From Diadophis punctatus similis (taxonomy: Eukaryota > Chordata > Lepidosauria > Squamata > Dipsadidae), in contig JALIGW010000001.1 in NCBI GenBank assembly GCA_023053685.1, forward strand, positions 159,440,547 to 159,504,546: a stretch of 64,000 nt of DNA, in the 5' to 3' direction. The notes beneath the pieces are model-generated. The model saw nothing but the letters and a program-made list of their open reading frames with translations, had not been told where the DNA came from and did no database searches. A program made the position numbers and the translations under genes. Shown here one piece after another: positions 7,802-64,000 of this stretch (the stretch's first letter is position 1; every line of letters starts with the position of its first letter).

Positions 7802-12252
<4,451 letters not shown>

Positions 12253-29172: not shown

Positions 29173-29392
29173 ACTTAGGTCAGTGATGGCAAACCTTTTT
29201 TCCCTTGGGTGCCGAAAGCGCGCATGCGCGCGCTATTGGGTGTGCATGCCCACACCCATAATTTAATGCCCCCATGCACCCCGCCTCCCTGCACATGTGC
29301 GCACCCCCCCAGTGCAACCTCTCCCCCACACATTTGTGCACACACACCCTCCCCCGTTTCCTGACTTCTGGTGGGCTCAGTACAGGGGTGGG

Positions 29393-29865
29393 TGTTAATG
29401 TATTAGCAGAGTATTCCTTGTGTTACCAAGGTTGTGCATACAGAAACGTTTAGATTGAGATCAGTTGTGAATAAGTACTCAACCACACACAGATACACTA
29501 ACTTGAATTAAAGTTTACTTTAAGAAATAGAATTTTCCTATAAACAGTCCAAAGTCATATACTTAATAGTCATAATGACAATCCAAGTATTATCCAGTAC
29601 AAATACATTTCAGCTATAATACATAACTACAACACAGAGAGAAATGCAGAGCATACATACTCTAGGCCTTGCTCTAATGATAAGCAGAGACTACACTCAG
29701 TAGTAGAGACCAAAGACAAACAGAGAGGGACTCCCAGAGAAATAAGCTGTGAACTCTAGCTCCCTCTTGTGGCAGTCTGCAACATCTCAGCTAAACAGAC
29801 ATATCTGTTAAAAGCTAAAACATATATTGTTCTATCCAATATTAGTTAAGGTCAGAGACCTAACA
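29393..29865 (-). repeat. Copia LTR, left copy (3' LTR of the element)
   Basis: The 473-bp direct repeat of 33848-34320 has TG...CA termini. The two differ near 29488 (CACACAG versus CACAGAG) and near 29849 (TTAAGG versus TTATGG). Confidence 0.93.
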
Positions 29866-29876
29866 TTCTCCCCTTT
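29866..29876 (-). promoter_or_regulatory. Copia polypurine tract
   Basis: On the minus strand AAAGGGGAGAA directly precedes the 3' LTR. This is the expected plus-strand primer site for reverse transcription. Confidence 0.8.
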
Positions 29877-29898
29877 GGGTAGATCAATATATAATACC

Positions 29899-30528
29899 TT
29901 ACATCTTTAAACCATAGTTTTCACAACACTCTTTATGTTTAATTGCACCTTGCGCTTTAGTGAAATGATCTGCAATATTCTGTTCAGTCATGCAGTATTC
30001 CAACTTAACCATTTTATTTTGAACACATTGTCTAACATTCAGATATCTCAAATCAGTATGTTTCGACCTTGTTTTCACAGCTAAACTATTAGCCATACTA
30101 ATGGCAGATTGATTGTCTTCATACACAATAAATGGCTCCTGTACAGTAATTCCTATATCCTTTAACAATTGTTTATAATACACCAATTCTGTACACATTA
30201 ATGATAAACTCGAGAATTCTGCTTCCATAGTGGATAAACTAATATGTTGTTGCCTAATAGATTTCCACCCTATTAAAGCATTACCCAACATTACCACTAT
30301 ACCTGATGTTGATTTGCGAGTCATTGCATCAGTAGCAAAACTTGCATCAGCATATGCAGTTAACACTAATTCATTTCTCGGTTCTAAATATAAAGAATAA
30401 TGTATTGTGTGCTTTAGGTATCTAAGTATTCGTTTAGCTGCTTGCCAATGCCTTTCATTTGGTTCAGCATTATATCTAGCCAGTTGATTTACGCTGTAAG
30501 ATATATCTGGTCTAGACCAATTACTCAA
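29899..30528 (-). CDS. Copia RNase H domain, separated by a frameshift
   Basis: These 209 codons continue the polyprotein in another frame, overlapping the end of the upstream frame by 4 bp. It opens with SNWSRPDISYSVNQLARY, the conserved block after copia RT. It then shows the RNase H signatures YADASFA, STSG, STMEAEF and EDNQSA. The track-style start is a TTG, not an ATG, and homology clearly runs through the junction. This is therefore the broken C-terminal part of Gag-Pol, not a separate gene. The break looks like a single-base loss in a TATT/TGAG context. Confidence 0.9.
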   Translation of the reverse strand: MSNWSRPDISYSVNQLARYNAEPNERHWQAAKRILRYLKHTIHYSLYLEPRNELVLTAYADASFATDAMTRKSTSGIVVMLGNALIGWKSIRQQHISLSTMEAEFSSLSLMCTELVYYKQLLKDIGITVQEPFIVYEDNQSAISMANSLAVKTRSKHTDLRYLNVRQCVQNKMVKLEYCMTEQNIADHFTKAQGAIKHKECCENYGLKM

Positions 30529-33500
30529 TATGAGAGACTACCAATTAGAGACTGATATATCTCCTTATCAAACACAGGACATTTAGTATCACTATTTGTA
30601 AATCCCTGATCCATTGGTGTCTTAGCAGTTTTACAATTCTCCAGGTTATATCTTTTTAACAATTGGCTAATCTTCTTAGCTTGCGAAATTTTGAATCCTC
30701 TATTTGTCTTCATTATATCAAGACCCAAATAATGTTTAATTTCTCCTAAATTTCTAATCTTGAACTTTCTTTGTAATTCAGAAACAATATCATTTGCTTC
30801 TTGTTCAGTCTTTGTTATAATCGCTATATCATCTGTAAATAATAGCAACAGAGAAATCAAACCATCTTTCTCTCTCCTAAATAAACAAGGATCAGCTATA
30901 CCAGCTTTAAAATCCATGGAAACTAATTCTTTTACAATGCATTTATTCCATTCATAACCTGATTGCTTTAAACCATAAAGACTTTTCTTTAATTTCCAAT
31001 AATCATTTTTTCTATCATCTTTTAAACCTAATGGCTTTCTCATATAAATGATATGTTGTAAAGGTGCATGTAGATATGCAGTTTCGACATCTACATGATT
31101 AATTATGCATTTATTTTTAGCTGCCCAAACTAATGCTCCTCTCAATGTATTTGCTCTCAGACTAGGTGCAAATACCTCATCATAATCCTTATCTGATTGA
31201 GCAAATTCCTGAGCAACTAATCTTGCTTTATGGGTAACAGTGCCATCCACACCAGTCTTTAATTTATACACCCATCTGCAACCTATTGCACGTTCACCTG
31301 GTGATAACTTTACATCTTCATATACCTCAAGATCCTTTAAAGATTTTAATTCCTTATTCATAGCTTCCTGCCAAGCTACCTGTTCCTTTGTTGGATACAG
31401 CTTAAGTTCATTATAATTAGACGGTTCCACATTAATCTGGCATACAATACTTGCCTGATATCTATCAGGTGGACGTCTCTCCCTAGTTGACCTCCTAGGC
31501 AATTTAGTACAAGTTGTTGGAATTTCCTCTTCCTTTTCCTCCCCTATCGAGGTATCTTCTACATCACCCATAGATGATTCCTCTATTGAGGATTCTTTCA
31601 CTATCCTATCATCAGTACTATTCTTATCAGAATCATCAGGAAACAATGGATCCTCAACAACGATACTATCTTGTTCCTTGTATTCCTGTTCCAGTTTACT
31701 CCATCCAACATGCTCAAGGAATTTAGCACTTGCACTACAATATACTCTAGTAGTACCTGGCTCCCAGAATCTAAATGATCTATGATTAGATTCATACCCT
31801 ACAAAACATAATTTCCGTGCTCTATGTTGTCCCTTTCGCCTTACTTGTGTGGGAATATGCACCCATGCTGGTGCACCAAATGTATGCAAATAACTAAGAT
31901 TTGGTTTCCTACCATACCAACGAGTAAATGGCAATTCACCAGTTGTTGCATTCACTACATTGTTCAAAACATGGTTAGCACACATTATAGCTTCACCCCA
32001 GAGTCTTTCTGGTAAACCAGAATCTGAAATCATGGTTCGAGACATAGCCTGTAATGTCTGACCTCTTCTTTCAATATGCGCATTATGTTGTGGCCGAAAA
32101 GGAGCAGAACGCTTATGTTCAATACCAGCTCTCTTTAGCATATCTTCAAATCTCTTATTGGTAAACTCAGTACCATTATCTGTTACTAAACTAACCAGTT
32201 TCTTATTCATTTTTCGTTCAACAAACCTTAACCAGTTTACAAAATGCTGATATGTTTCTGTTTTTGTTTTCATCAGATAACAGAAACCATATCTAGAAAA
32301 ATGATCAACTATGCTCAATATATAACAGGCTCCACCTAAACTGGGTTTCTTAGGGCCAATGAGATCAGCAAATACAACCTCTAATGGTTCCTTGGTTTTA
32401 AATCCATTTAACCTGCTTGCAGGAATTACCTTGCTCTTTTCCTGATTGCAAGCATTACAATTTAAATATCTTGCACAAGGTTTTAATTTTATACCATTAG
32501 ATAACTCAACAGTTTTCTTTAAAATTTTGAAATTTAAATGTCCCATACGTCTATGGAGCAAATGAATACATTCGTCATGAGGCTTTCTATTTTCATAAAC
32601 TGAATTGGCCTTATTTAATGGACTATCATGGATAATGTATAAGCCATCATGCAATCTTGCAGTAACTCTTTTACCTTGTTTTTCAATTAAACATTTATCT
32701 CCCTGAAAAGTTACCACAAACCCTGCTTTTACCAATTCTCTGACAGATAGTAAGTTATATATAAGATTAGGTACATATAACATTGGTAAACTTTCATTAA
32801 TACATGAACAATATGCATTACCTTCTCCAGATACTCTCAATTTCCAGCCATTTGCTAATGATACATGCTGTTTACTTTCAGTCATATTAACAAATCTCTC
32901 TTTACTTTTAGTTATACACTGAGATGCTCCACTGTCTATTATCCAGATATCATGGCTTACAGTTTTATTTGTACTTGATATAGCTGCACTAACATCATTA
33001 TAAGCTCTCTGCATATTACTAGCATTCTGCTTTTTACCCTTTTTACAGAATCTGGCTATATGACCTTTAGCCCCACAAGAATAACATTTCCTAACAATAT
33101 AGGCAGTTGAAGACATTTTTTCTTCCTGTGGTGATTTCTCTCTCAGCTGTTTTCTATCTTGCCTTCTTCTAGACTCTTCTAACAGTCTTCCTATTATGCC
33201 AGTCAATGTCAGTTCATCTCTGGTCAAAACTTCCAGTGAAGACACATAATCATCATAAGAGTCATCCAAAGAAGAAAGAATAATATAAACTTGATGCAAC
33301 TCTGAGAAAATCAGTTCTTTTTCATGTAGCTCTTGTAATGTTCTCTTCATAAACTCCAAATGAGCTAACATGTCACCACCTTTTAACAAACGTGCTCTGA
33401 ACAGTTTACGTGTAAGGTGTATGTGCGCACCAACACTATCACGAACATAAAGTCTCTTTAAGGTACTCCAACACTTGGCAGCAGAATCTTCACCATGAAT

Positions 33501-33824
33501 ATGGACCAGTTGCTGATCACTCAGTGTCAGTCCAATAATACTAAGAGCCTTTTCATTATCCCGGTTAAAGGCAGCTATTTTCTTCTTATCTTCATCATTT
33601 GTTGGATCCCAAGCTGTTATATCAGGTGGATTATTAACCACAGTCCATAATCCTTCTTTACGCAAAAGTAAGCTGCACTTCATAGACCAGGAAACATAGT
33701 TAGTTCCATCTAACCTGGTTATCAGGGATAAGCTAGTTGACTGTTCTTGTGCCATTGTTAATTTAACAGTAAACCACAAGTTAGCTGTCTGAGTATGAAA
33801 CTGAATATTCACACTAACTCTCAA
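30525..33824 (-). CDS. Copia Gag-Pol polyprotein (gag, protease, integrase, RT)
   Basis: This 1,099-codon frame encodes the retrotransposon polyprotein. The likely start is the ATG at 33755 (MAQEQST), because the first 23 codons are leader. Numbered from 33824, it has a gag region, a CCHC zinc knuckle at 247-260 (CYSCGAKGHIARFC) and a protease active site DSG at 297-299. An integrase HHCC zinc region spans about 424-459. The integrase core acidic residues are D487, D549 and E585, a D,D35E spacing. The RT has conserved WVYKLK, YGLKQ and FTDDIAI, the last being the catalytic DD box. The frame stops at 30525 inside the conserved link to RNase H, where one base appears missing, so RNase H is out of frame. 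All other key residues seen are present. Confidence 0.93.
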   Translation of the reverse strand: MRVSVNIQFHTQTANLWFTVKLTMAQEQSTSLSLITRLDGTNYVSWSMKCSLLLRKEGLWTVVNNPPDITAWDPTNDEDKKKIAAFNRDNEKALSIIGLTLSDQQLVHIHGEDSAAKCWSTLKRLYVRDSVGAHIHLTRKLFRARLLKGGDMLAHLEFMKRTLQELHEKELIFSELHQVYIILSSLDDSYDDYVSSLEVLTRDELTLTGIIGRLLEESRRRQDRKQLREKSPQEEKMSSTAYIVRKCYSCGAKGHIARFCKKGKKQNASNMQRAYNDVSAAISSTNKTVSHDIWIIDSGASQCITKSKERFVNMTESKQHVSLANGWKLRVSGEGNAYCSCINESLPMLYVPNLIYNLLSVRELVKAGFVVTFQGDKCLIEKQGKRVTARLHDGLYIIHDSPLNKANSVYENRKPHDECIHLLHRRMGHLNFKILKKTVELSNGIKLKPCARYLNCNACNQEKSKVIPASRLNGFKTKEPLEVVFADLIGPKKPSLGGACYILSIVDHFSRYGFCYLMKTKTETYQHFVNWLRFVERKMNKKLVSLVTDNGTEFTNKRFEDMLKRAGIEHKRSAPFRPQHNAHIERRGQTLQAMSRTMISDSGLPERLWGEAIMCANHVLNNVVNATTGELPFTRWYGRKPNLSYLHTFGAPAWVHIPTQVRRKGQHRARKLCFVGYESNHRSFRFWEPGTTRVYCSASAKFLEHVGWSKLEQEYKEQDSIVVEDPLFPDDSDKNSTDDRIVKESSIEESSMGDVEDTSIGEEKEEEIPTTCTKLPRRSTRERRPPDRYQASIVCQINVEPSNYNELKLYPTKEQVAWQEAMNKELKSLKDLEVYEDVKLSPGERAIGCRWVYKLKTGVDGTVTHKARLVAQEFAQSDKDYDEVFAPSLRANTLRGALVWAAKNKCIINHVDVETAYLHAPLQHIIYMRKPLGLKDDRKNDYWKLKKSLYGLKQSGYEWNKCIVKELVSMDFKAGIADPCLFRREKDGLISLLLLFTDDIAIITKTEQEANDIVSELQRKFKIRNLGEIKHYLGLDIMKTNRGFKISQAKKISQLLKRYNLENCKTAKTPMDQGFTNSDTKCPVFDKEIYQSLIGSLSY

Positions 33825-33831
33825 TATCTCT

Positions 33832-33845
33832 CTGGGCCCATAACC
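33832..33845 (-). promoter_or_regulatory. Copia primer-binding site, initiator tRNA-Met anticodon arm
   Basis: The + strand CTGGGCCCATAACC equals 14 nt of the anticodon arm of vertebrate initiator tRNA-Met, ending at about nucleotide 39. The element RNA would therefore be complementary to it. It lies 2 nt inside the 5' LTR, the expected place. Drosophila copia is primed by a 5' half of this tRNA in the same way. Confidence 0.8.
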
Positions 33846-33847
33846 AG

Positions 33848-34320
33848 TGTTAATGTATTAGCAGAGTATTCCTTGTGTTACCAAGGTTGTGCATACAGAA
33901 ACGTTTAGATTGAGATCAGTTGTGAATAAGTACTCAACCACACAGAGATACACTAACTTGAATTAAAGTTTACTTTAAGAAATAGAATTTTCCTATAAAC
34001 AGTCCAAAGTCATATACTTAATAGTCATAATGACAATCCAAGTATTATCCAGTACAAATACATTTCAGCTATAATACATAACTACAACACAGAGAGAAAT
34101 GCAGAGCATACATACTCTAGGCCTTGCTCTAATGATAAGCAGAGACTACACTCAGTAGTAGAGACCAAAGACAAACAGAGAGGGACTCCCAGAGAAATAA
34201 GCTGTGAACTCTAGCTCCCTCTTGTGGCAGTCTGCAACATCTCAGCTAAACAGACATATCTGTTAAAAGCTAAAACATATATTGTTCTATCCAATATTAG
34301 TTATGGTCAGAGACCTAACA
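33848..34320 (-). repeat. Copia LTR, right copy (5' LTR of the element)
   Basis: This 473-bp LTR would carry the promoter for the minus-strand element. It matches the left copy except at about two positions. The target duplication GTGGG follows at 34321. Confidence 0.93.
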
Positions 34321-39480: not shown

Positions 39481-39615
39481 CAGAGGTCTTCAAACTTGGC
39501 AACTTTAAGACTTGTGGACTTCAATTTCCAGAATTCTCCAGCCAGCTATGCTGGCTGGAGAATTTTGGGAGTTGAAGTCCACAAGTCTTAAAGTTGCCAA
39601 GTTTGGGGACCCCTG
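39481..39615. mobile_element. Palindromic hAT MITE
   Basis: The ends are CAGAGGTCTTCAAACTTGG and CCAAGTTTGGGGACCCCTG. A perfect duplication CCTTAAAG flanks it (39473-39480 and 39616-39623). The whole element folds on GCCAGCTATGCTGGC. Relatives lie at 43739, 54508 and 55571. Confidence 0.93.
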
Positions 39616-44580: not shown

Positions 44581-45138
44581 GGCAGGAAAGTATTAGAAAA
44601 AGATTCAGACTGGCTCTCCCCTCCCCCAATTCTGGAGTATAAAAAAGGAAAGTACGATCAGATTGTTACTGTAGTCCATCTCAGTAAAGTATAGTCTTTA
44701 TGTGCAGTCGGTTTCCTGATCTGTTTACCACCTAGAGGTGAGAGGCCATGAGTGCACTGTTAGAAGACTGGAAGGGTTAGGCTGGGGACAGATCATTCTG
44801 AGGATGAAATATTTAGGCAGTTACTAAAAGTTGGCTCCAACCATAATGCATATAAACAATCAGCCAATAGTGTCTAAATTCCAGGATCTACTCCATTACC
44901 CATAATGTGCTTTATAATAGTCCAATACTAAAGATTTGTGGCTCACAAGAAGGAGCCAAGGAGGACATCCAAAGGCAATTAAATTGGAGACAACTAATTA
45001 TTGTAGAAATACCCTATTGTTTTACTTCGCTATGTTCTATATTCTAATTTTTAGAGCCATGATCAGTAGTGGGTTCTAAATCCCATCGCTACTGGTTCAT
45101 GTGTGTAGATAGCTCACTTGCTCACTTTTACCAGTTGC
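44581..45138. other. No gene recognised
   Basis: Near 45067 a fragment CAGTAGTGGGTTCTAAATCC resembles a hAT left end. The remainder is unassigned. Confidence 0.35.
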
Positions 45139-45708
45139 TCTAACATCTGTAGTTATGAAAACCGTTGAAAGGCTAGTGCTGTCCCACTTGAAAACCATCA
45201 CAGATCTACTGTTAGACCCCCTGCAATTTGTATACCGAGCAAACAGATCAACAGATGATGCTGTTAATATGGCTCTGCACTACACCCTACAACATCTTGA
45301 ATCTCCAAAGATCTATGCAAGGGTCCTCTTTGTAGGCTTTAGTTCAGCATTCAATACCATCATTCCAGACACTCTTCTAACTAAGCTGAACCAGCTAGCG
45401 GTACCTGAACACATTTGTAAGTGGATCATAAGCTTCCTAACAAATAGGAAGCAGCAGGTGAAGCTAAGTAGAATTACATCAGATACCTGTACAATTAGCA
45501 CAGGGGGCCCCCAAGGCTGTGTGCTCTCTCCATTTCTCTTCTCTCTATATACCAATGACTGCATCTCTAACGATCCATCTGTTAAACTACTGAAGTTCGC
45601 AGATGACACAACAGTGACGAATGTATCTTGTCTTTTTATGTACACTGAGAGCATATGCACCAAAGACAAATTCCTTGTGTGTCCAATCACACTTGGCCAA
45701 TAAAGAAT
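45139..45708 (+). pseudogene. L2/CR1-type LINE, internally deleted RT plus 3' end
   Basis: A 182-codon frame (45155-45703) carries RT blocks FVGFSSAFNTIIP, ISTGGPQGCVLSPFLFSLYTND and LLKFADDTTV. The catalytic aspartate expected in FVDFSSAF is G here, and after TTV the sequence jumps to the 3' end (CTTGTGTGTCCAATCACACT). The copy is therefore inactive. It ends directly in the (ATTCT)n repeat. Confidence 0.85.
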
Positions 45709-52689: not shown

Positions 52690-52895
52690 GATGGTCTTAA
52701 CCTGTTTTAATAACAGGTCATTCATTTGGCCGACCTGATTTTGCAACCCTTTTTTTGTGGGGGTCATTAAGCAAATGCTCCAGTTATTAAGCGAACCAAT
52801 TGTGTGCTATGGATTGGTTTAATCCATAACTGTCCTTAGCAACAGACATGTTGGGCTCAATTGTGGTTGTAAATTGAGGACTTATACCTGTATTT
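52690..52895 (+). repeat. Fragment of TA-type MITE
   Basis: CCTTAGCAACAGACATGTTG and GGCTCAATTGTGGTTGTAAA near 52838-52875, followed by GAGGACTTATACCTGTAT, match the right part of 60895-61290. The left part is worn. Confidence 0.6.
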
Positions 52896-60894: not shown

Positions 60895-61290
60895 CAGGTA
60901 GTCCTCAACTTACATCAGTTCATTTAGTGACTGTTTGAAATCACAACAGCAATGAAAAAAGCAACTTATGACCGTTTTTCACACTTATGACTGTTGTAGC
61001 ATCCCCATGGTCACTTGATCAAAATTCAAATGCTTGGCAACTGACTCATACTTATGACAGTTGCAGGGTCCTGGGGTCATGTGATCAACTTTTGCGAACT
61101 TCTGACAAGGAAAGTCAATGAAAAAGCCAGATTCACGAAAGAACAATATTCCTTATTTAACAACTGTAGTGATTCACTTAACAACTGTGGCAAGAAAGGT
61201 CATAAAAAGGGGCAACAGTCAATTAACAAATGTCTCACTTAGCAACAAAAATGTTGGGCTCAATTGTGGTCATACGTCGAGGACTACCTG
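60895..61290. mobile_element. Tc1/mariner-like MITE, CAGGTAGTCCTC type
   Basis: Terminal repeats CAGGTAGTCCTCAACTTA and CGTCGAGGACTACCTG are flanked by TA on both sides (60893-60894 and 61291-61292). The interior alternates ACTTATGAC and CAATTGTGGTCAT motifs. It has no transposase. Fragments recur at 52690 and 63007-63070. Confidence 0.85.
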
Positions 61291-61749
61291 TATTCTAGGA
61301 TCCAGGCCTCTTAAGCAGGTCCAGACCAATGTTTCTTTCAAGGCTCTTGGTATCTCCCTTTTGTAATCAGTCAGCCTAAACAAAGCAATTGCTGGTTTAG
61401 AATGAATGAGCTAGAAGGGACCTTGAAGGTCTTCTAGTCCAGCCCCCTGCTCAAGCAGGAGAACCCATACTATTTTAGATAAGTGACTGTCTAGACCAGT
61501 GGTTCCCAAAGTGGGCGGTACCGCCCCCCAGGGGGCGGTGGGAACCCTTAGGGGGGCGGTGAGAGGCAAGGGTGGCAACAGGGGGGCGGTGAGAGGGGCC
61601 AGGGGGGCGGTAGGTGGTTCGCCATGCTTTTGCACTTGAAGCTCCCTCGTGTTCCTTGCTCTTGTGTGCAGGGCAGCCCATTCTGAAAGAAAATGAGAGA
61701 CGTTTTCTTTCAGAATGGGCTGGCCTGCACCCAAGAGCGTGGAATGCGA

Positions 61750-61944
61750 CGGAGTTACAAGTGCTAGGTACTGAGCATGGCACAGCGACAAGGGAAGCTG
61801 ACCGCTCACGAAGCTGCTCGGGCGAGGGCTCACAGACCCGAGGGAAGGTCCCGCCGTGGAACCTGCACGTGCACGTACTTTCCCGCCCGGCGTCCCCATC
61901 CCCTAGCAACCTGGCACGCGCAATTCGGTGGGCTCCCCTCCGGC
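61750..61944 (+). promoter_or_regulatory. Probable captured RSPH14 promoter/5' UTR
   Basis: This CpG-rich stretch immediately precedes the captured exon, with GCACGTGCACGTAC and CTAGCAAC motifs. The second is an RFX half-site. Whether it is active in the transposon is unknown. Confidence 0.5.
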
Positions 61945-62144
61945 ATGGCGCACCCGCGGATCTCAGCCCAGCTGCCCCCCCGACATCGACCCCACCAAGG
62001 AGCCTGTGGCCTTCGGCCGCCGAGGCCTCCCCAAGCTCAATGAAGAGCTGCAGCACCCCGAGCTGCTGACCCGGCAGCCAGCCTTGATGGCGCTCTGTGA
62101 CCTGGTGCACCACCCAGAGAATGTTTACCAAGCCATCGGCCTGG
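61945..62144 (+). pseudogene. RSPH14: Captured first coding exon of RSPH14
   Basis: From the ATG at 61945 the frame reads MAHPRISAQLPP. After one extra C in a seven-C run (61975-61981) it continues in another frame as DIDPTKEPVAFGRRGLPKLN, LLTRQPALMALCDLVH and [10 protein letters not shown]. This is the N-terminus of RSPH14 (RTDR1), an armadillo-repeat protein of ciliary radial spokes. It stops at an intact donor G|GTGAGC (62145), as a first exon would. The upstream 300 bp is CpG-rich with a half X-box CTAGCAAC (61903-61910). No later exon exists in the window, and the piece lies between hAT ends inside a CR1, so it is a captured copy, not the gene. The identity is from recognition of the family sequence. 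Confidence 0.8.
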
Positions 62145-62164
62145 GTGAGCAGCGGTGGCGGCCT

Positions 62165-63005
62165 GGCCATGGCTGGCAGGAGGGAAGGGAAGGGAGGGAA
62201 GAAGGAAAGAAAAAGGAAAGAAAGAAAGAGAGAGGGAGGAAGGAAAGAAGACAAAGAAAGAAAGAGAAAGAACGATGGGAGGAAGGAAGGAAGATAGACA
62301 GAAAAAGAAAGGAGGGAGGGAAGAAGGAAAGAAAGAAAAAGAAAGAAAGAAAGATGGTAGGAAGGAAGTCAGACAGAAAAAGGAATGAGGGAGGGAAGGG
62401 AAGGGAGGGAAGAAGGAAAGAGAAAGAAAGAGGGAGGGAGGAAGACAGAAAGAAAGAAAGATGGTAGGAAGGAAGAGACAGAAAAGAAAGGAGGGAGGGA
62501 AGGGAAGGGAGGGAAGAAGGAAAGAAAAAGGAAAGTAAGAAAGAGGGAGGGAGGGAGGGAAGACAGAAAGAAAGAGAAAGAAAGATAGATGGTAGGTAGG
62601 AAGGAAGATAGACAGAAAAAGAAAGGAGGGAGGGAAGAAGGAAAGAAAAAGGAAAGAAAGAAAAAGAAAGGAAAGAAAGATGGTAGGAAGGCAGGAAGGC
62701 AGGAAGGAAGAAAGATGGTAGGAAGGAAGGAAGACAGACAGAAAAAGAAAGGAGGGAGGGAAGGGGGGAAGAAGGAAAGAAAAAGGAAAGAGGGAGGGAG
62801 AGAGGGAGGAAGAAAGAAAGATGGTAGGAAGACAGAAAGAAAGAAAAAGATGATAGGTAGAAAGGCAGATAGACAGAAAGAAAGAAAAGATGGTAGGAAA
62901 GAAGACATACAGAAAGAAAGAAAAGAAAGAAAGAGAAAGATGGTAGGAAGAAAGACAGAAAGAAAAAGAAAGAAGGGGGAAGGTAGAGAAGAAAGAACGA
63001 AAGAA
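62165..63005. repeat. Long purine (GAAA/GGAA/GGGA)n tract with GATGGTAGG units
   Basis: Nearly pure A/G on the + strand. It is built from degenerate higher-order units of about 60-110 bp that end in AAAGATGGTAGGAAGG and contain AGACAGACAGAAAAAG. Very long reading frames on both strands here are artefacts. It may derive from the start of the captured intron. Confidence 0.9.
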
Positions 63006-63214
63006 AGACTTATGATCACAATTGAGCCTAACATTTTGGTTGCTAAGCAAGAGCGTTGTTATGTGAGTTTCACTACACTTTACAAGTTAGCTGCGCCCAC
63101 CCGGTCACCTGACCACTAAGCCACGCCCACCTGAGGGGGTGGGGGCGGTGAGGATGAGTTTGTAGCACCAAGGGGGCGGTGGACTGAAAAAGTTTGGGAA
63201 CCACTGGGCTAGAC

Positions 63215-63700
63215 CAGTGGTTCTCAACCTTCCTAATGCCGTGACCCTTTAATTCAGCTCCTCATGTTGTAGTGACTCCCAACCATAAAATAATAAAATT
63301 ATTAGGAAACTCAGGGGTGGGTTCTAACTTACCTCGCTGCCGGTTCACTTCTTCCTGCACTGCGTGGCCATTCCTCATGGGCGCGTGTGCACTTTGCGCA
63401 TGTATGCATGAGCAGTGCCAATTTTTTAAAAAAAAACTTGCAAAAAAACCTGAAAACAAGATAGTGACGCATGCGCAGTGCCAGAAATTCGGCTTCTGCG
63501 CATGCTCAAAAATTCCCATGGTACAGATTTTTTTTTTGTAGTAGTATATTTGCATGTGGGTAGACCCGCCTGGATAGAGGAGCGGTGCCTCGGTTCCTAA
63601 GACCATTGGAAATATTTTTTTTCCGATGGTCTTAGGTGACCCCTATGAAAGGGTCGTTCGACCCCCAAAGGGGTCGCGACCCACAGGTTGAGAACCACTG
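63215..63700 (-). mobile_element. SPIN-like hAT element
   Basis: Read on the minus strand it starts CAGTGGTTCTCAACCTGTGG, then GTCGCGACCCC, GGTCGAACGACCC and CCTAAGACCATCGG. It ends GGTCACGGCATTAGGAAGG and TTGAGAACCACTG. This closely follows the SPIN (SPACE INVADERS) family. The target duplications are GGCTAGAC (63207-63214) and GTCTAGAC (63701-63708). The middle is replaced by a hAT fragment at 63312-63517. Confidence 0.85.
63312..63517 (+). mobile_element. Right-truncated hAT inside the SPIN-like element
   Basis: It begins CAGGGGTGGGTTCTAACTTA and runs to GCGCATGCTCAAAAATTCC. It is the same family as 53301-53596, and no right terminus is visible. Confidence 0.75.
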
Positions 63701-64000
63701 GTCTAGACTCTTCTTAAAAACATCCAGTGATGGACCGCCCACGATTAGTTCCCAACCATTGTTTCTTGTCCTGCCCTCTGGTGCTTTGGAGAATAATTTG
63801 ACCCCCTCTTCTTTGTGGCAGCCCCTCAAGTACTGGAATACTGCTATCATGTCACCCCTAATTCTTCTATGAAGCAGCTGAGTTTTCTTGATAATACCTT
63901 TTAAAATATACTTTTCCAAAACATGTACCACATTTATTGTGATCGGAGAATTCCAACTTCAGTGTAATTAAAGCAATGTTTTCTTAAATAAACAACTCAA

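Follow-up and report, generated by a model that had tools for sequence, protein, structure and literature searches.

A hAT transposon carrying the 5' flank, first coding exon and splice donor of the ciliary gene RSPH14 in a snake genome

Host gene fragments held between the terminal inverted repeats (TIRs) of DNA transposons are already known from animals as Pack-TIRs, with the bat Helitron HelibatN3 as a functional analogue. In the available part of a survey of animals, 100 genomes yielded 370 Pack-TIRs (208 of hAT type), approximately two per 10,000 TIR elements; nearly all of those in animal reference genomes are single-copy, with four multicopy cases, and the single-copy elements are explained mainly by gap filling in place (PMC8277862). 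Multicopy examples given there are Pack-hAT-N8_XT of Xenopus, which contains a fragment of the CAPSL 5' UTR and has three copies, and Ssk-FB4 of the fly, with four; further multicopy cases come from frog and alligator. FB4 has longer TIRs and 9-10 bp target site duplications (TSDs), and a multicopy share of 36% is quoted for rice Pack-MULEs (PMC8277862). HelibatN3 of vesper bats carries the NUBPL promoter, six codons and a splice donor, and its chimeric transcripts have been demonstrated; according to the same partial text, Helitrons of Myotis lucifugus hold the promoters of 15 genes in 4,690 copies (PMC4778049). The Mar MITEs of Drosophila belong to the Buster family, whose target consensus is nnnTAnnn, and the accessible portion of their description reports that they derive from an autonomous element through an internal deletion (PMC3517528).

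Inspection of a 64,000-nt stretch of contig C1 from Diadophis punctatus similis (the window, at its full length) identified a non-autonomous hAT element of 1,710 bp at 61497-63206. The features of the element and its borders, with the basis of each in brackets, are as follows:

61489-61496, no strand: left 8-bp TSD copy, GTCTAGAC (sequence)
61497-61631, plus strand: hAT left end, with TIR CAGTGGTTCCCAAA and three GGGGGCGGTG-type subterminal repeats (sequence)
61632-61764, no strand: imperfect palindrome of 133 bp with 62-bp arms, 85% complementary; the hairpin module (sequence and DNA fold)
61771-62184, plus strand: captured RSPH14 segment, comprising 5' flank, exon 1, donor and start of intron 1 (native alignment)
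61903-61910, no strand: octamer resembling an RFX (X-box) half-site, CTAGCAAC, ~35 bp upstream of the ATG (sequence and copy comparison)
61945-62144, plus strand: RSPH14 first coding exon, 200 nt (native 199), frame broken by C7 at 61975-61981 (protein and DNA alignment)
62145-62150, plus strand: splice donor GTGAGC, identical in the native gene (native alignment)
62185-63006, plus strand: purine-rich microsatellite of ~0.8 kb, differing in length among copies (sequence and copy comparison)
63011-63066, minus strand: dispersed-repeat fragment, with like stretches at 61219-61274 and 52835-52872 (sequence)
63132-63206, plus strand: hAT right end with TIR TTTGGGAACCACTG (sequence)
63207-63214, no strand: right TSD copy, GGCTAGAC, 7/8 (sequence)
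63215-63700, no strand: second hAT-like element with TIR CAGTGGTTCTCAACC, outside the RSPH14 unit (sequence)
63701-63708, no strand: third GTCTAGAC copy, the outer TSD of two abutting insertions (sequence)

The hAT ends and target duplication claimed in an earlier note on this DNA were found as perfect 14-bp TIRs (61497-61510 and its complement at 63193-63206) and an 8-bp TSD whose two copies agree at seven of eight positions. G-rich subterminal repeats at the left and right ends are related to each other. The second hAT-like element, which we take to be SPIN-like, landed precisely within the TSD that flanks the RSPH14 unit and left three tandem TSD copies. The DNA fold of the hairpin module has a predicted energy of -59.8 kcal/mol (z -13.4). 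The cargo had also been described as CpG-rich; this is true relative to the window as a whole (CpG o/e 0.68 in 61768-62175 versus 0.35), but the window's CpG peak lies elsewhere, and other 408-bp stretches reach 0.99-1.1. At gathering thresholds no Rfam family matched the window, and for a putative CR1-like repeat that may have been continuous across the empty site no second copy was found there. Elsewhere the window contains a TMEM17 exon (11899-12252, plus strand; Pfam Transmemb_17, E = 2.1e-6; 62-83% identical to named reptile TMEM17) that, like RSPH14, points to a snake, a LINE-type reverse transcriptase fragment (45113-45703, plus strand; RVT_1, E = 5e-21) and a Copia-type LTR element (29392-34146, minus strand). 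The latter has two 300-nt stretches, 4,455 bp apart and 100% identical, a 1,110-aa ORF with gag, integrase and reverse transcriptase domains, and a further ORF of 212 aa; it looks recently inserted.

A start codon and about 66 codons matching RSPH14 had been claimed for 61945-62144, and protein comparison in both frames bore this out. Frame 2 (61976-62146) matched the RSPH14 chains of PDB entries 9fqr (E = 6e-20) and 8j07 (E = 5.8e-15) and is 86-94% identical to snake RSPH14: 93% for Crotalus and for Laticauda, 91% for Candoia, 86% for Erythrolamprus, and 94% for Naja over 95% of the query. Frame 1 (61945-61980) reads MAHPRISAQLPP and is identical to residues 1-12 of the Crotalus and Laticauda proteins. 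Positions 61975-61981 form a run of seven C residues; native RSPH14 has six. The native first exon was located on the minus strand at C362:2772408-2772608, as were later exons, one at 2665862 and one at 2662655. Exon 1 is closest to Crotalus (97%), and for the later exons the nearest matches are two elapids, Laticauda and Naja (87-92%); over the last exon identity to Naja is 71%, where the Naja record lacks a piece. In native intron 1, ~270 bp 3' of exon 1, there is a palindromic hAT-like unit of 136 bp (L034, 1097-1232, on C362) with ends CAGTGTTTCCCAACC and a perfect TSD, GACTAGAT, on both sides.

DNA alignment with this locus showed that the captured stretch corresponds to native positions -148 to +239 (A of the ATG as +1). 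It comprises 148 bp of 5' flank, all of the first coding exon with its GT donor, and the opening ~40 bp of intron 1, and is colinear with native genomic DNA except for small gaps, the largest being a block of ~20-30 bp absent from the native gene. The promoter flank, exon and donor assigned to the cargo at the outset were confirmed, and the extent of the captured stretch was corrected to 61771-62184; the donor is intact (GT at 62145-62146) and reads GTGAGC, as in native exon 1. The first sign of non-coding flank in the capture came from P0011, an ORF in a public read assembly of a related genome that extends through the RSPH14 5' flank and exon 1 into the start of intron 1, and aligns to window positions 61771-61980 and 61931-62173. 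Residues 208-237 of P0011 also match a palindromic repeat at 39499-39588 in the window. The proposed RFX half-site was found at 61903-61910; we take CTAGCAAC to be a half-site of this type.

The genome was then searched for further copies of the unit (assembly of 1.78 Gb in 419 contigs). In a DNA search, 40 of 7,293 candidates were scored and proved to be 40 separate elements, including the window copy; 16 of them span the entire 1-1710. Identity to the window copy is 79-94% in the other 39. A search with snake RSPH14 protein returned 1,223 candidates, of which 119 were scored, and all 119 matched: three are the native exons on C362 and 116 are exon-1-only places elsewhere, distributed over 38 contigs by hand count. 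There is no internal stop in 107 of these 116, a sample made up of the best-scoring places. A 23-mer from exon 1 had 669 exact genome matches (reversed-pattern control, 0) and 1,000 at up to three mismatches (control, 2), these being counts of matches and not of whole elements. A 29-mer from the left end matched 1,439 times at up to one mismatch (control, 0), and a 23-mer from the hairpin module 3,703 times at up to two; some members contain extra copies of this module, as around C1:61775126-61775904. These two larger counts show that 1,000 was no upper limit of the search. Contig C1 has 82 exact left ends, and in 36 of these an exact exon match follows within 3 kb downstream. For detailed comparison, 54 copies were studied, a non-random set of 30 chosen by DNA similarity to the window copy (DNA-picked) and 24 by exon score (exon-picked); three more exon-picked loci were left out because they repeated DNA-picked loci. 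Finding the exon within the same hAT ends in several copies had been named as the proof of mobilization, and these 54, with hundreds of further matches, provide it. Scans of a viral contig collection with the left end, right TIR and repeat flank gave no match, and six pattern matches to RSPH14 in that collection encode no relative. A 20-mer from the right TIR matched two prokaryote records in a genome contig collection, as a pattern match alone.

Perfect 8-bp TSDs flank 43 of the 54 copies and comprise 42 different octamers. Among the DNA-picked copies, 25 of 30 have perfect TSDs (24 distinct), and the window copy (7/8) is one of the five that do not; among the exon-picked copies, both TIRs lie within reach in 21 of 24 and the TSD is perfect in 18. 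Positions 4-5 are TA in all 43 perfect TSDs, which gives the consensus nnnTAnnn of Buster-type elements, and the 8-bp TSDs and short TIRs starting CA(G) place the unit in the hAT superfamily. The left end has at most two mismatches in 22 positions in all 30 DNA-picked copies, and the right end at most two in 18 in 27 of them (L010 and L012 have four, L023 seven). Three elements (L021, L028 and L029) are 94.7-97.8% identical from end to end, with 12-18 mismatches per pair, and have three different TSDs. The near-identical pair L059 and L060 (C90:485758 and 491210) lies 5 kb apart and the pair L041 and L061 (C217:132429804 and 132402444) 27 kb apart, each with differing TSDs; these pairs represent local hopping. 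Similar copies with different TSDs (L021/L028/L029; L059/L060) indicate genuine transposition, some of it recent, and the hundreds of matches together with 42 different TSDs indicate that the RSPH14 exon was mobilized repeatedly. Mobilization of the exon is well supported by computation. Host sequence between TIRs, a parent gene elsewhere (C362) and many copies with distinct TSDs identify the unit as a Pack-TIR. Helitrons of the HelibatN3 type lack 8-bp TSDs, and a Helitron identity (no TIRs, no TSD) is excluded by the perfect TIRs and 8-bp TSDs. A search for an autonomous partner (PF05699, 150 genome matches scored) covered nine of the matching hAT-transposase loci, none with the TIRs of the RSPH14 unit; four of the nine were examined with only 1.5 kb on each side, and their ends may lie outside.

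The copies point to one capture. Matches to the native stretch occur at 58 loci, two of which (L072 and L076) match an unrelated repeat alone, leaving 56 with the capture; it begins at -148 in 48 of these and ends at +239 in 53. The substitution E36Q is present in 54 of 54 aligned copies, indicating a single captured ancestor, and R45P in 46. At non-CpG sites the consensus differs from the native gene at 9 of 271 positions, and copies differ from the consensus by a median of 1.7% (0.7-4.1%); with an equal rate on both branches, these values would suggest a burst soon after capture. Eight of the C1 left ends that lack an exact exon match were looked at individually. L077 proved to be a normal capture, L074 is a variant, L078 and L079 retain only the first 25 bp of the capture, and L072, L073, L075 and L076 have none of it. 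L073, L075, L078 and L079 are short forms of 390-657 bp with perfect TSDs. L074 (C1:33631790-33634700) shares the ends of the family, is flanked by a perfect TSD and contains native sequence from -236 to +116 with a truncated exon and further GC-rich sequence; it may be an early larger capture, an intermediate or a second capture. L072 (C1:7517000-7519900) and L076 (C1:37977580-37980500) share the left end, but their cargo is another, longer one that lacks RSPH14; a 37-mer taken from it has 482 genome matches at up to three mismatches, and among the matches listed, 10 of 51 places on C1 pair with an exact left end.

Plant Pack-MULEs also hold gene fragments between TIRs and are often multicopy, but they are MULE-superfamily elements, whose TIRs are longer and whose TSDs measure 9-10 bp, whereas the snake unit is a hAT. 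It resembles the Mar MITEs in being a non-autonomous hAT with nnnTAnnn target duplications, and differs from them in its cargo, no captured gene being mentioned in the available part of the Mar description (PMC3517528). A close counterpart among the animal Pack-TIRs is Pack-hAT-N8_XT, which also has a host 5' gene fragment within hAT ends, different TSDs and a location far from the parent gene; the snake cargo is a complete coding exon with its donor in place of a 5' UTR fragment, and its 669 exact and 1,000 near matches contrast with the three copies of that element and the four of Ssk-FB4, as given in the partial text (PMC8277862). The scale thus looks new among animal multicopy Pack-TIRs of known copy number. 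The earlier note held capture of a 5' gene end by a non-autonomous hAT to be unusual; it is rare, but was already known from the 208 hAT cases, one involving a 5' UTR (PMC8277862). No RSPH14-carrying transposon or high-copy Pack-hAT was found among the open-licence papers searched.

Building on what was directly observed (the parts of the unit, the native RSPH14 locus from which the cargo came, breakpoints that are predominantly of one set and repeated transposition with different TSDs), the unit is very probably a multicopy, non-autonomous Pack-hAT with Buster-type target choice, which made one genomic capture of RSPH14 and spread to ~670-1,000 sites. On this model, a single non-autonomous hAT element would have acquired the RSPH14 piece from genomic DNA, not cDNA, perhaps through template switching or through aberrant repair of a gap as it transposed. 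With transposase presumably supplied in trans, the chimeric element would have moved to ~670-1,000 sites soon after capture, some hops being recent, and its cargo would be a passenger that evolves neutrally and not a working promoter or exon.

The most serious competitor is a working exon trap, in which some copies would act as a mobile promoter and first exon whose transcripts, in ciliated cells or testis, would be spliced from the captured donor into downstream exons; we consider it unlikely. The 148 promoter-proximal bp, the ATG (kept in 52 of 54 copies) and the GT donor (53 of 54) move together, and 48 of 54 copies, like native RSPH14, have the RFX-like octamer. HelibatN3, with its NUBPL promoter, six codons and donor, works in this way in bats and HeLa cells, as far as the available text goes (PMC4778049). 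In the snake unit, as in HelibatN3, a promoter was amplified within a transposon subfamily together with an ATG, the beginning of the coding sequence and a splice donor, an exon-trap design in principle. The snake unit differs in belonging to the hAT superfamily, HelibatN3 being a rolling-circle Helitron without TIRs, and in containing a whole exon, where HelibatN3 has six codons and demonstrated chimeric transcripts (PMC4778049, in part). Within the DNA-picked set the ATG is kept in 28 of 30 copies, the donor in 29 of 30 and an open frame without a stop in 17 of 30; in the exon-picked set the frame is open in 23 of 24. Against the exon trap, retention of ATG and GT is approximately what neutral divergence of 2% would leave, and the family variant QPALMAL is absent from 129 RSPH14-type proteins covering limited length ranges.

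The pattern of substitution depends on how the copies were chosen. Non-CpG changes at codon positions 1, 2 and 3 number 7, 6 and 33 in the 24 exon-picked copies, a third-position excess that favors the exon trap; we read it as an effect of choosing copies by protein score, and selection would give the same pattern. In the 30 DNA-picked copies the corresponding numbers are 27, 21 and 22, and 18% of CpG sites are changed compared with 2.3% of others. Equal change across codon positions shows no trace of purifying selection since the copies inserted, and the CpG decay gives no sign of a protected promoter; both argue against general use of the family for chimeric transcripts. The 54 copies have a mean of 36.8 CpGs (range 28-45), the window copy 31 and the native stretch 55, so the family probably undergoes germ-line methylation and is for the most part drifting. 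Translation from the ATG of the window copy would end after 32 codons, so this copy could donate at most a 5' UTR or promoter. According to the earlier note, the additional C would break the frame in this copy only on condition that other copies did not share it. It is shared: the exon is one base longer in 10 of the 30 DNA-picked copies, with at least five separate origins on the tree, which excludes the additional C as the mark of one dead copy.

The remaining readings are far weaker. Gap filling without transposition, in a hAT already resident at the window site, would follow the explanation given for most single-copy animal Pack-TIRs in the available text (PMC8277862), but the many copies of one structure with different TSDs, and a donor gene on another contig, refute it for the spread of the unit and make it highly improbable as an account of the locus; the first capture itself may fit. 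A native RSPH14 gene or segmental duplicate lying by chance between two hAT insertions, a reading encouraged by the two adjoining hAT elements at the window site and by the 136-bp unit in native intron 1, is refuted and has a negligible probability: RSPH14 exon 2 beside the window is ruled out by the native exons being on C362 and the window on C1, no further RSPH14 exon was matched within the 64-kb window, and identical boundaries recur at dozens of places. Gene fragments in repeats are often retrocopies, but a processed pseudogene of RSPH14 mRNA is likewise refuted, with next to no probability, by colinearity with genomic DNA from -148 upstream of the ATG through the donor into intron 1.

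What makes the Pack-hAT described here notable is its scale and how complete a 5' gene end it captured. A single capture that was put through many genuine transpositions constitutes a natural experiment with many replicates, in which one can ask whether a scattered promoter, first exon and donor give rise to new transcripts, how quickly cargo of this kind becomes methylated and decays, and whether the presence of many homologous copies feeds back on the parent ciliary gene RSPH14. By analogy, and as a doubtful proposal, a minority of the roughly one thousand dispersed units might initiate chimeric transcripts specific to testis or cilia, or might supply small RNAs directed against RSPH14. If this were true, the RSPH14 unit would be the TIR-transposon counterpart of HelibatN3.
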